Virus record (IMG/VR): IMGVR_UViG_3300025155_000041
Coordinates: 1-22,615 of that record
Direction: 5' to 3' (one strand)
From: a virus
Length of the DNA: 22,615 nt
Shown here one piece after another: positions 3,017 to 16,557 of this stretch. The notes under the pieces are model-generated. The model was not told the origin of the DNA, ran no database searches, and was given only the letters and a program-made list of their open reading frames with translations. The stretch's first letter is position 1; each line of letters opens with the position of its first letter. Made by a program: the position numbers and the translations under genes.

Positions 3017-4759
3017 TTAGCCAGTCTCCACGCCTGCAATGTTTGCCTGAAATGTCTCCCAATGCCCACCGCGATTACCGCCACCTAAGGCTGTGCCTAC
3101 AAGTGGAGAATCGACTTGCAGTGAGTAATCATCGTTTGTTGGATCAGTGAACTTAAAGTCAGCCACCGAGCCTAACGTCGCATTCGTGCCTGTATTATCC
3201 GGCGTACCACCCGGCTGGATCGTGATGTCCTCGTTCACCGAGTCGATGCTGGAGTTGTGGCTGACATGCCAGTTATTCGTCCCGTACTTGGTGTTCAACG
3301 AGGTCTGGTACGCGAACCAGCCAAACTGCGAGTTGTACGCGAAGGCGTTGTTGTAAATCCGCCGCGAGAACTCGCTGCCAAAGGGGTCCTGATACGTCCC
3401 GAAAACCGGGCCGTCATTGCCGAACTCGATCGTGGTATGCGGAAGGTCAATCGCGGTGTTGTTGAAGATCGCGATCTCGTAGCTGGCCCGGTGCGAGAAT
3501 CTGCAGAACCCGTCGATGGTTGAGCCGCCGGGATGCCCCCAGGTGTAGTTGTACGACAGCTCTAGGTGGTGCGAGGTATCGTTGACTGGGGTTCCGTTAT
3601 TCCCGAAGCAGGAGAAGATGTCTCCGATGCAGTCGTAGAGCAGATTCCCCCGGACGGTCCAGTGGCGGCAGTGGACGAAGTCCGCGAACGCCGCGTTGTT
3701 CTCCTGACACCCAAAGTTGAGGATCAGGTCGTGGGTACTAGCCGGTGCCCGGCGGAACCCCCGGAACACGCAGTTGGCGAGCACCCCGCGCTCGGCGTTC
3801 TTGATCTCGAAGAGATTCTTCCGGCTCTGTGTCGTACTTCCGTCGCTCTGGAACTCACAGCGATGGACCACGATGTCGCGTGGCCAAGTGTCATCGTTTG
3901 AGCCGTCGAGTGTTGCCGGAGCGGAGCCACCGAAGATGATGTGCTCGGTGGCATAACCAAGGTAGCAATTCTCCAGATGGAGTCGTGAACAGTAGACCCA
4001 CGTCCCAACGCACTGACTGTCCGACAGCCCGGCGTCGTTGAAGCCGCCAAAGCGGCATCCATAGGCTGCCAGGTTCACGCCTGCTGGTGTCCAGCCCCGT
4101 CGCTGCCCTCCCGTTGCCTGCTCCTTGATGATGCAGCGATCAAAGACGAAGTTGTTCGGGGCCGCTGCCTTTGTGCTCCACCCACCCAGTCCGGGCGTAG
4201 ACGAGATGATGGCGTCCGCGTTATTGGACCCGGACTCATTGGTGAAGATGGCTCCAATGAAGCGCCAGTGAGACGACGACGCCTGCATCTGGAGCGCCCG
4301 TCCGTTGACCGAGGTCGAACGGAGCGTGAACATGTTGGCGGTGTGCGCCGTCGTGACCCGCGATCCTAGCGCGGGCAGGCTGGCGTGGGCAGACGAGCGA
4401 ACAATGATCCAGCCAGTGCCGGTCTTTATGTCGAGCTGGAAGTTGCCTGTATGCGTCGTGCCAGCCTCGACCTCGATGATGTCTCCACGCACTACGTCAA
4501 GCAATGCTTGGGCAAACGTCTTCTGGCTAGGAACCTGATGCACAGTCCCGGTGTTATTCGGGATCGTGCGGAAGTCCCACATGTCCCTGGCAGGCTTGTT
4601 GTTAAGCAAGTCCCAGCCAATTGACACACCGAACTCGTCCAAAGGCAAGTCGTAGAGAGGAGCAACTACAACACTGCTGCCTATCTCTGTGCTGCCAGTG
4701 CCGTGGCCCTTACCCAGACCACGGCGCTGGCCCTGACCTCGATGCCTTGACAACTGCAT
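3017..4759 (-). CDS. Right-handed parallel beta-helix protein (putative tailspike/fibre)
   Basis: 580 residues. From about residue 75 it follows the pattern of a right-handed beta-helix: an entry segment (TFAQALLDVVRGDIIEVEAG), then repeated short strands with N, G and T turns such as FDRCIIKEQATGG, LHLENCYLGYATEHIIFGGS, IVVHRCEFQSDG and LSYNYTWGHPGG. Many phage tailspikes and polysaccharide-degrading depolymerases use this fold, as do pectate lyases. I see no diagnostic catalytic set, so enzyme activity is unproven. The N-terminus (about 1-30) is Arg/Gly-rich and may be the virion-attachment end. A GGAG ribosome site precedes the ATG. The gene is the largest in the fibre block, consistent with a host-recognition tailspike. 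Confidence 0.83.
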   Translation of the reverse strand: MQLSRHRGQGQRRGLGKGHGTGSTEIGSSVVVAPLYDLPLDEFGVSIGWDLLNNKPARDMWDFRTIPNNTGTVHQVPSQKTFAQALLDVVRGDIIEVEAGTTHTGNFQLDIKTGTGWIIVRSSAHASLPALGSRVTTAHTANMFTLRSTSVNGRALQMQASSSHWRFIGAIFTNESGSNNADAIISSTPGLGGWSTKAAAPNNFVFDRCIIKEQATGGQRRGWTPAGVNLAAYGCRFGGFNDAGLSDSQCVGTWVYCSRLHLENCYLGYATEHIIFGGSAPATLDGSNDDTWPRDIVVHRCEFQSDGSTTQSRKNLFEIKNAERGVLANCVFRGFRRAPASTHDLILNFGCQENNAAFADFVHCRHWTVRGNLLYDCIGDIFSCFGNNGTPVNDTSHHLELSYNYTWGHPGGSTIDGFCRFSHRASYEIAIFNNTAIDLPHTTIEFGNDGPVFGTYQDPFGSEFSRRIYNNAFAYNSQFGWFAYQTSLNTKYGTNNWHVSHNSSIDSVNEDITIQPGGTPDNTGTNATLGSVADFKFTDPTNDDYSLQVDSPLVGTALGGGNRGGHWETFQANIAGVETG

Positions 4760-15928: not shown

Positions 15929-15957
15929 TTGACAAGGTAGCGACCTCATGGTATATT
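15929..15957 (+). promoter_or_regulatory. Promoter P1 (sigma70-type)
   Basis: TTGACA (15929-15934), a spacer of exactly 17 nt and TATATT (15952-15957), then GTGG. The -35 box is perfect and the -10 has one mismatch. The same layout and flanks recur at P2 and P3. The start site would fall near 15964, about 22 nt before the first gene of the operon. Confidence 0.88.
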
Positions 15958-15985: not shown

Positions 15986-16165
15986 ATGGCGGAGAAGAAA
16001 CTTCCCACGGTCGACGAGTTGATCGACAGAAACAAGGAGCTTGAGGAGCAGCTGGAATCGGTGGGGCGCAGAGCTCACATGCTGGCCGGCAAACTCGCGA
16101 AGATTCGCGAAGCGTTGGAGGGTGTGCCAGGGTTGCCCGCGACGGCGTACAAGCTTCTGCGGTAA
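15986..16165 (+). CDS. 59-residue coiled-coil protein, first gene after P1
   Basis: ATG at 15986 with ACAGGAGAA upstream and stop at 16163-16165. The protein starts MAEKKLPTVDELIDRNKELE and continues as a heptad-like helix (LEEQLESVGRRAHMLAGKLA), ending in a short Pro/Gly turn and AYKLLR. It is a small coiled-coil protein, perhaps a regulator or dimer partner; I do not recognise a family. It is the first gene transcribed from P1. The stop codon is followed after one base by the first bases of the hammerhead ribozyme, so cleavage would leave this coding sequence on the 5' product. Confidence 0.82.
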   Translation: MAEKKLPTVDELIDRNKELEEQLESVGRRAHMLAGKLAKIREALEGVPGLPATAYKLLR

Positions 16166-16166
16166 G

Positions 16167-16242
16167 CTTCCCAGGTCGAAACCCAACGACGGGAGTCGTA
16201 GGGTAGCAGCGTAGATGCGTTGCCTGATGAGACCACAGGAGG
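16167..16242 (+). ncRNA. Type II hammerhead ribozyme
   Basis: All parts of the hammerhead fold are present. The core CTGATGA is at 16224-16230 and GAA plus the paired A at 16178-16181. Stem III is ACCCAACGAC (16181-16190) with GTCGTAGGGT (16195-16204), one A/A mismatch, capped by the GNRA tetraloop GGGA. The UH site is T16204-A16205, with predicted cleavage between 16205 and 16206. Stem I is GCAGCG (16206-16211) with CGTTGC (16218-16223), including one G-U pair, and loop TAGATG. Stem II is GGTC (16174-16177) with GACC (16231-16234), then an internal loop and CTTCC (16167-16171) with GGAGG (16238-16242). Stem II is the open helix, defining type II. It fills the gap between two genes exactly. 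Activity is predicted, not shown. Confidence 0.92.
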
Positions 16243-16247
16243 ATGCG

Positions 16248-16454
16248 ATGTACCGCATGACAAAGAGCGAACGACGTAAGGCGCGCAAGGCCGCACGGGC
16301 AGAGAGCCAACCATTGACTGGCGAGTTAGCGATTGAACGCAACTCACAACCAGAAGAGTTCTCAGAAACTCGTCGTGGTTACGTTGCGCGGGATCGGTGG
16401 GCGCGACGGTATGATGAACTCAACGGTGCGCCGGAAAGCGAATACGATCGTTGA
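16248..16454 (+). CDS. Small basic protein downstream of ribozyme
   Basis: 68 residues from the ATG at 16248, chosen because AGGAGG lies 5 nt upstream; earlier in-frame starts lie inside the ribozyme. The start MYRMTKSERRKARKAARAES is strongly basic, and the second half is more acidic (RRYDELNGAPESEYDR). The basic helix could bind nucleic acid, but no family is recognised. Its ribosome site is within stem II of the hammerhead ribozyme, so its translation may depend on ribozyme folding or cleavage. A strong hairpin follows at 16467. Confidence 0.8.
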   Translation: MYRMTKSERRKARKAARAESQPLTGELAIERNSQPEEFSETRRGYVARDRWARRYDELNGAPESEYDR

Positions 16455-16466
16455 GACAGCACCTCA

Positions 16467-16501
16467 CAAACCCACGAGGGACACGATCCTTCGTGGGTTT
16501 G
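16467..16501 (+). terminator. Strong hairpin, terminator-like
   Basis: Arms CAAACCCACGAGGGA (16467-16481) and TCCTTCGTGGGTTTG (16487-16501) pair over 15 positions with one G-U, loop CACGA. The GGGTTT end of the stem is typical, but no T-run follows. It closes the P1 unit and lies just before P2. Confidence 0.75.
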
Positions 16502-16528
16502 GCACGTCGGGGAGTTGCCCAAGGTTAT

Positions 16529-16557
16529 TTGACAACTCCCAAACCTGATGGTATGAT
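16529..16557 (+). promoter_or_regulatory. Promoter P2 (sigma70-type)
   Basis: TTGACA (16529-16534), 17-nt spacer, TATGAT (16552-16557), then TGTGG. The bases ATGGTAT at the spacer end match P1. Predicted start near 16564, only a few bases before an ATG at 16568. Confidence 0.88.

Follow-up and report, generated by a model that had tools for sequence, protein, structure and literature searches.

The locus and its predicted transcription unit

The window, meaning the whole stretch of DNA that we analyzed, is a 22,615-base virus record from an uncultured phage. Late genes lie in its left part on the minus strand, where PHROG matches identify a portal, a terminase, and an endolysin, and a plus-strand unit begins at ~15.9 kb (Table 1). 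DNA similarity to named phages amounted to a single 25-base match, which is uninformative, and among the ten matches listed, the relatives of the terminase in named phages are less than 30% identical.

The plus-strand unit holds two short genes that encode proteins of 59 and 68 amino acids (aa). The sigma-70-like promoter ahead of them is the likely start of a two-gene transcript, judging from its sequence. A strong hairpin 3' of the 68-aa gene is a possible end of the unit; it has no T run and was not called a terminator by our scan. An in-frame ATG at 16215, inside stem I of the ribozyme described below, would lengthen the 68-aa gene to 79 aa. By eye, an inner ATG at 16257 matches the apparent start position of relatives in loci L002 and L003.

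The 59-aa protein has no relatives in viral contigs and no PHROG match. Relatives of the 68-aa protein are encoded at 7 loci, and no ribozyme was found near the relatives: 7 of 7 other records gave no match. The association of the ribozyme with this gene is thus not a fixed one. In L002 and L003 (~3930-4001), judged by eye, a promoter-like TTGACA..TACATT appears to stand directly upstream of the 68-aa homologue in place of a ribozyme. In L005-L008, only the C-terminal residues match (around YDELNGAPES), at the ends of small phage proteins; this C-terminal stretch may be a common tail joined to N-terminal parts that differ.

Table 1. Coordinates of features in and around the predicted two-gene unit (position 1 is the first base of the window)
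Feature	Position	Strand	Basis
Sigma-70-like promoter, TTGACA-17-TATATT, TG ahead of -10	15929..15957	+	11/12 matches
Upstream ORF, 59 aa, TAA stop at 16163-16165	15986..16165	+	ORF list
CGGTA, outermost predicted strand, pairs with TACCG 16251-16255	16160..16164	+	MFE
CTTCC, outer stem II 5' strand, Shine-Dalgarno complement	16167..16171	+	sequence, MFE
Predicted type II hammerhead ribozyme	16174..16234	+	covariance model, 52.2 bits, E 1.4e-18 (rough)
Stem II core GGUC/GACC	16174-16177 with 16231-16234	+	MFE, model alignment
GAA	16178-16180	+	core of hammerhead
Stem III	16181-16204	+	closed by loop
H17 = A16205	16205	+	structural scan and model match
Predicted cleavage bond after A16205 (GGGTA^GC)	16205..16206	+	from H17 position
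Stem I	16206-16223	+	closed by loop
CTGATGA	16224-16230	+	core of hammerhead
GGAGG, Shine-Dalgarno sequence of 68-aa gene, predicted paired in folded ribozyme	16238..16242	+	MFE, constrained folding
ORF of 68 aa downstream of the ribozyme; conserved in other phages	16248..16454	+	7 loci with relatives
Strong hairpin 3' of 68-aa gene	16468..16503	+	read from sequence; sub-threshold hairpin match
Second promoter-like site	16529-16557		promoter scan

The element between the two genes is a predicted type II hammerhead ribozyme

All conserved hammerhead positions are present between the two genes in type II order: GGUC, GAA, an A and a U on either side of stem III, the A that precedes the cleaved bond, stem I, CUGAUGA, and GACC. 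Sequence and model alignment together give a complete invariant core, with CUGAUGA, GAA, the A15.1-U16.1 pair, H17, and the G10.1-C11.1 pair. The minimum free energy (MFE) structure of 16160-16256 is a type II hammerhead (-36.7 kcal/mol, z -2.95) in which stems I and III are closed by loops and stem II is open.

To score the element, we derived a covariance model from 58 other phage ribozymes. The hammerhead core and cleavage site that an earlier note on this DNA had predicted between the two genes were recovered by this model at 52.2 bits over 54 of 54 positions, compared with 9.2 bits for the second-best match within the window; the E value of 1.4e-18 is only rough owing to the short calibration of the model. 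In the underlying 58-sequence alignment the stems covary: 273 cells are changed on both sides, against 84 after shuffling (14 of 16 pairs), and 95.6% of cells are paired, against 64.4%. A scan for the core and three stems found one site in the whole 22.6-kb window, and the same scan of the dinucleotide-shuffled window returned 2 matches in 300 shuffles, both strands included. From its sequence and predicted fold, the ribozyme is thus more than a chance match and is a new example of the known type II hammerhead class.

No hammerhead was matched in the window by Rfam at any threshold tried; the ribozyme falls below the gathering threshold of the type II family RF02276, which is a curator's cut-off rather than a mechanistic feature. 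Across 11 related loci, the RF02276 model recovers only 10 ribozymes and omits most of a small-loop group with a 6-bp stem I, to which we assign the window, L013, L099, L104, L116, L141, L143, and others. Elements of this kind are therefore probably under-annotated. The small-loop and large-loop ribozymes also differ in tertiary potential: at least four pairs can form between loop I and the stem II tail in 112 of the 113 large-loop-I ribozymes compared with 33 of the 105 with a small loop I. This pseudoknot is common in type II ribozymes and is not obligatory. For the window loop, UAGAUG, no such pairing is apparent by eye.

Predicted pairing of the Shine-Dalgarno sequence in the folded and cleaved RNA

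The earlier note had proposed that an outer strand of stem II doubles as the Shine-Dalgarno (SD) sequence of the 68-aa gene. Its coordinates for CTTCC, GGAGG, the ATG (16248), and the cleavage site (16205) all agree with the sequence, and the pairing of GGAGG with CTTCC is present in the MFE structure. Stem II there runs from the GGUC/GACC core through a CA/ACA internal loop to CUUCC/GGAGG and then CGGUA/UACCG, which places GGAGG in the outer rather than the core part of the stem. The CUUCC/GGAGG helix has five pairs, one of them G-U. GGAGG lies 5 nt ahead of the ATG, and the 8-nt spacer 3' of the upstream stop, GCTTCCCA, contains the anti-SD sequence.

When the RNA is constrained to form the ribozyme core and 30 nt of 5' flank are included, GGAGG has a mean unpaired probability of 0.12. 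The proposal that the folded ribozyme hides the SD agrees with this prediction, but the predicted masking depends on context. Over 32 transcript cuts with the core enforced, the value ranged from 0.01 to 0.81 (at most 0.37 in 31 of the 32), and it spanned 0.01-0.86 when the core was left unenforced. Several longer free foldings prefer a different fold in which the CUUCC/GGAGG helix is rare; in one longer unenforced fold, upstream Gs compete for CUUCCC. The start AUG itself is 0.88-1.00 unpaired in the uncleaved transcripts.

In the cleaved 3' product, GGAGG is 0.48-0.56 unpaired. Once freed, the CUG strand forms pairs with CAG, which leaves GAGG free, and an AUGCG/CGCAU hairpin places the start codon in its loop. 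Similar values (0.51-0.56) were obtained by free folding when the 5' strand cannot reach. The models therefore predict an SD release of about fourfold upon cleavage, dependent on context. As for the further suggestion that cleavage may expose the SD, the folding prediction favors it, but the two cleavage products of the window are predicted to bind at -8.5 kcal/mol, compared with a class median of -4.7, which is tighter than in ~95% of 176 relatives; such tight binding works against release upon cleavage.

SD masking is close to chance at this site and at chance in the class

We asked how often unrelated 5' flanks mask this SD. Foreign flanks from other ribozymes hid it as well as the native flank in 17 of 323 cases (5.3%), and shuffles of the native flank did so in 13.0% of 500 dinucleotide and 8.6% of 500 mononucleotide versions. 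The folding models thus put SD pairing at this site only marginally above chance.

Masking as a property of the class was tested in four ways: by two flank exchanges, by counts of SD helices, and by the association of anti-SD flanks with close SDs. The main class set was sampled without regard to flanks and comprised 176 ribozymes after we dropped duplicates and those near contig ends; of the 151 that have an SD, 149 were folded, and the 179 in the SD-helix count reflect slightly different margins. Exchange of flanks among the 149 phage ribozymes left the SD essentially as accessible as before, with an unpaired probability of 0.520 for native and 0.510 for exchanged flanks (Wilcoxon p 0.053, towards more open). 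An SD unpaired at 0.12 or below occurred in 5 of these 149, against 8.0 expected. SD helices of at least 5 bp between the flanks numbered 3 in 179, against 2.6 (SD helices upon flank exchange, standard deviation 1.5). An anti-SD 5' flank was not associated with a close SD either: 16 of the 55 ribozymes with such a flank had one, compared with 45 of the 172 without. The 55 came mostly from two anti-SD pattern scans, and such pattern-scan collections are samples, not censuses.

An earlier flank exchange used sets of 55 and 123 ribozymes, the second found mainly via a GGAGG pattern. In the set of 123, native flanks left the SD more open (0.530) than exchanged ones did (0.496, p 0.006). The window (L001) belongs to the set of 55 and, under a longer SD definition, gave 0.27 with its native and 0.74 with exchanged flanks. 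Individual cases similar to the window exist, for example GCTCC/GGAGC in L085, but only about as many as chance would give.

We therefore reject the idea that SD sequestration characterizes the class, since native flanks, SD helices, and anti-SD association are all at about chance; neither at the site nor in the class was SD pairing clearly conserved or enriched beyond chance. On the same results, the switch for translation suggested in the earlier note is not supported as a selected function. In the window, masking is possible but unproven by these models, and we read the CUUCC-SD pairing as incidental; at most, it would weakly and locally dampen the 68-aa gene.

Phage type II hammerheads occupy the gaps between genes

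What the class shares is position. A stop codon that ends a frame of at least 60 codons falls within 12 nt before the core G12 in 124 of the 176 ribozymes, compared with 180 of 3520 random positions on the same strand. Counted by triplet, 125 of 193 stop triplets in this 12-nt zone close a frame of at least 60 codons, whereas random stop triplets do so in 663 of 5280 cases. Stops most often end 2-3 nt before G12, which places them within the 4-bp stem II. Downstream, an SD and a start codon follow within 70 nt in 151 of 176, compared with 187 of 880 random positions, at median distances after CTGATGA of 16 nt for the SD and 28 nt for the start. The window lies just outside these class cut-offs, since its frame is 59 codons long and its stop ends one base too far upstream. 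From these sequence placements, phage type II hammerheads appear to fill intergenic gaps, with position as their common feature. The suggestion of the earlier note that the ribozyme separates the expression of the 59- and 68-residue proteins fits this pattern.

In ~70% of the 176 phage ribozymes, the upstream stop either touches the 5' strand of stem II or shares bases with it. Such an arrangement suggests that translation termination and ribozyme folding would be mutually exclusive.

Some phage contigs (L086, L099, L116, and L143) each carry between five and eight type II hammerheads in an array, mostly just before genes. Downstream of a type II hammerhead in L059 (5434-5530), the sequence resembles a tRNA T-arm and acceptor end; ARAGORN finds no tRNA there, and we dropped this candidate. 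A pattern scan of bacterial genomes returned at least 120 stretches, mostly chance matches, and the structural scan was passed in 5 genome loci.

Discussion

We consider it probable that the element is an intercistronic mRNA processing element that cuts a two-gene transcript after the predicted site, A16205. The ribozyme would act in a short transcription unit, between the stop of the 59-codon gene and the ribosome-binding site of the 68-codon gene. After cleavage, the 5' piece would end in the stem III hairpin and the 3' piece would open with the stem I hairpin, followed by the SD and AUG. Since the type II order leaves a hairpin at both cut ends, each gene would come to lie on its own hairpin-capped mRNA, and the hairpins would shield both pieces from exonucleases. 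Because the stop codon overlaps stem II, a terminating ribosome would have to leave before the ribozyme folds, so that cleavage in the cell, which we infer, would be delayed until ribosomes clear the stop codon. The intact core and stems, the position from stop to SD, the promoter-like site just upstream, and much the same placement in most relatives speak for processing; the relatives of the 68-aa gene that have no ribozyme, the single copy found in this 22.6-kb fragment, the placement of the window just outside the class cut-offs, and the longer free foldings that prefer a different fold speak against it.

The proximity of the stop codon raises the question of whether translation of the first gene governs access to the second. 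A ribosome stopped at the UAA (16163-16165) would, given its usual footprint, itself cover CUUCC, so the SD could open through upstream translation with no cleavage at all. On this translational coupling, a ribosome ending the 59-codon gene covers CUUCC and part of stem II, exposes the SD, and blocks the ribozyme, and a later cut ends the coupling. The stop codon one base upstream of CUUCC, the location of the stop at or across stem II in 124 of 176 relatives, and the free foldings that open GGAGG when the 5' strand is out of reach are all consistent with it. Dense packing of phage genes alone would yield the same spacing, however, and the stop overlap in relatives does not involve the SD; coupling is a possible but doubtful contributor. 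We regard as unlikely a switch operated by cleavage, in which the uncut ribozyme hides GGAGG until the CUUCC piece departs and, with the CUGAUGA strand refolded, the SD becomes accessible. The predicted opening in the 3' product, with its CUG..CAG refold and free GAGG, and the small share of foreign flanks that mask equally well (17 of 323) argue for such a switch, and artificial SD-sequestering hammerhead and twister ribozymes do function in E. coli in work described in PMC5052635. The class, however, shows no tendency towards masking in flank exchange (0.520 against 0.510), in helices (3 of 179 against 2.6), or in flank association (16 of 55 against 45 of 172), the products are held tighter than in 95% of relatives, and fast constitutive cleavage would leave little to regulate. 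A terminating ribosome, moreover, would open the SD without any cleavage.

It is highly improbable that the element is a degenerate, inactive relic whose stem II overlaps the SD by chance. A single copy in one gene setting, with no relatives retaining the ribozyme, would suit a relic, and 4 of 18 consensus hammerheads assayed by Perreault et al. gave no cleavage in the results they present (PMC3088659). All core positions and the three stems are intact in the window, however (E 1.4e-18, roughly), and the placement matches that of the class. Coupling and the cleavage switch are better seen as possible additions to intercistronic processing, which we favor, than as exclusive alternatives. Combined, they would make the ribozyme a switch gated by both cleavage and ribosomes: the outer stem II would mask the SD, upstream ribosomes would hold mask and ribozyme open, and as these thin out the RNA would fold, cut, and release the downstream mRNA. 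More widely, since their stem II borders on, or shares bases with, the upstream stop codon, phage type II hammerheads might be translation-gated scissors. We judge this combined scheme improbable.

Perreault et al. (2011) described the first natural type II hammerheads, demonstrated cleavage in vitro and in E. coli, and proposed for prophage hammerheads that flank single genes a processing into gene-length mRNAs (PMC3088659). The class data sharpen this transcript-processing proposal into anatomy, with the stop codon at stem II and the SD ~16 nt after the core, and show that stem II does not generally mask the SD in this class. The hammerhead arrays would be good material for the transcript-processing question. 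The text of Perreault et al. contains neither "Shine" nor "ribosome binding" (PMC3088659), and among open-licence papers we found no report of a natural SD-masking hammerhead or of stop codons overlapping stem II, which is weak evidence of absence.

Compared with known systems, the window ribozyme resembles the type II hammerheads of prophages and phages as these are described in RF02276 and PMC3088659. It has the same order of GAAA, stem III, UH, stem I, and CUGAUGA, with stems I and III closed and stem II open, and it lies between co-directional phage genes just before a start codon (PMC3088659). Most published type II ribozymes have a loop I pseudoknot; the window ribozyme has a small loop I and a 5-bp outer stem II helix, and no such pseudoknot is apparent by eye. 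It is also unmatched by Rfam models, and its outer stem II includes the SD. Synthetic SD-masking ribozyme switches, both hammerhead and twister, are known (PMC5052635), and as in those described there, the stem contains the SD and cleavage is predicted to free it. Unlike them, the window ribozyme is natural and has no ligand domain, its masking is not seen as selected, and its products are predicted to bind unusually tightly for the class. The HHphage of haloviruses HF1 and HF2, as presented in PMC3088659, also stands immediately before a phage gene start. For one halovirus ribozyme, Perreault et al. noted a distance of 13 nt to the start codon and a transcript 5' end mapped near the cleavage site. 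HHphage is a variant found in viruses of halophilic archaea, whereas the window ribozyme has the consensus core.
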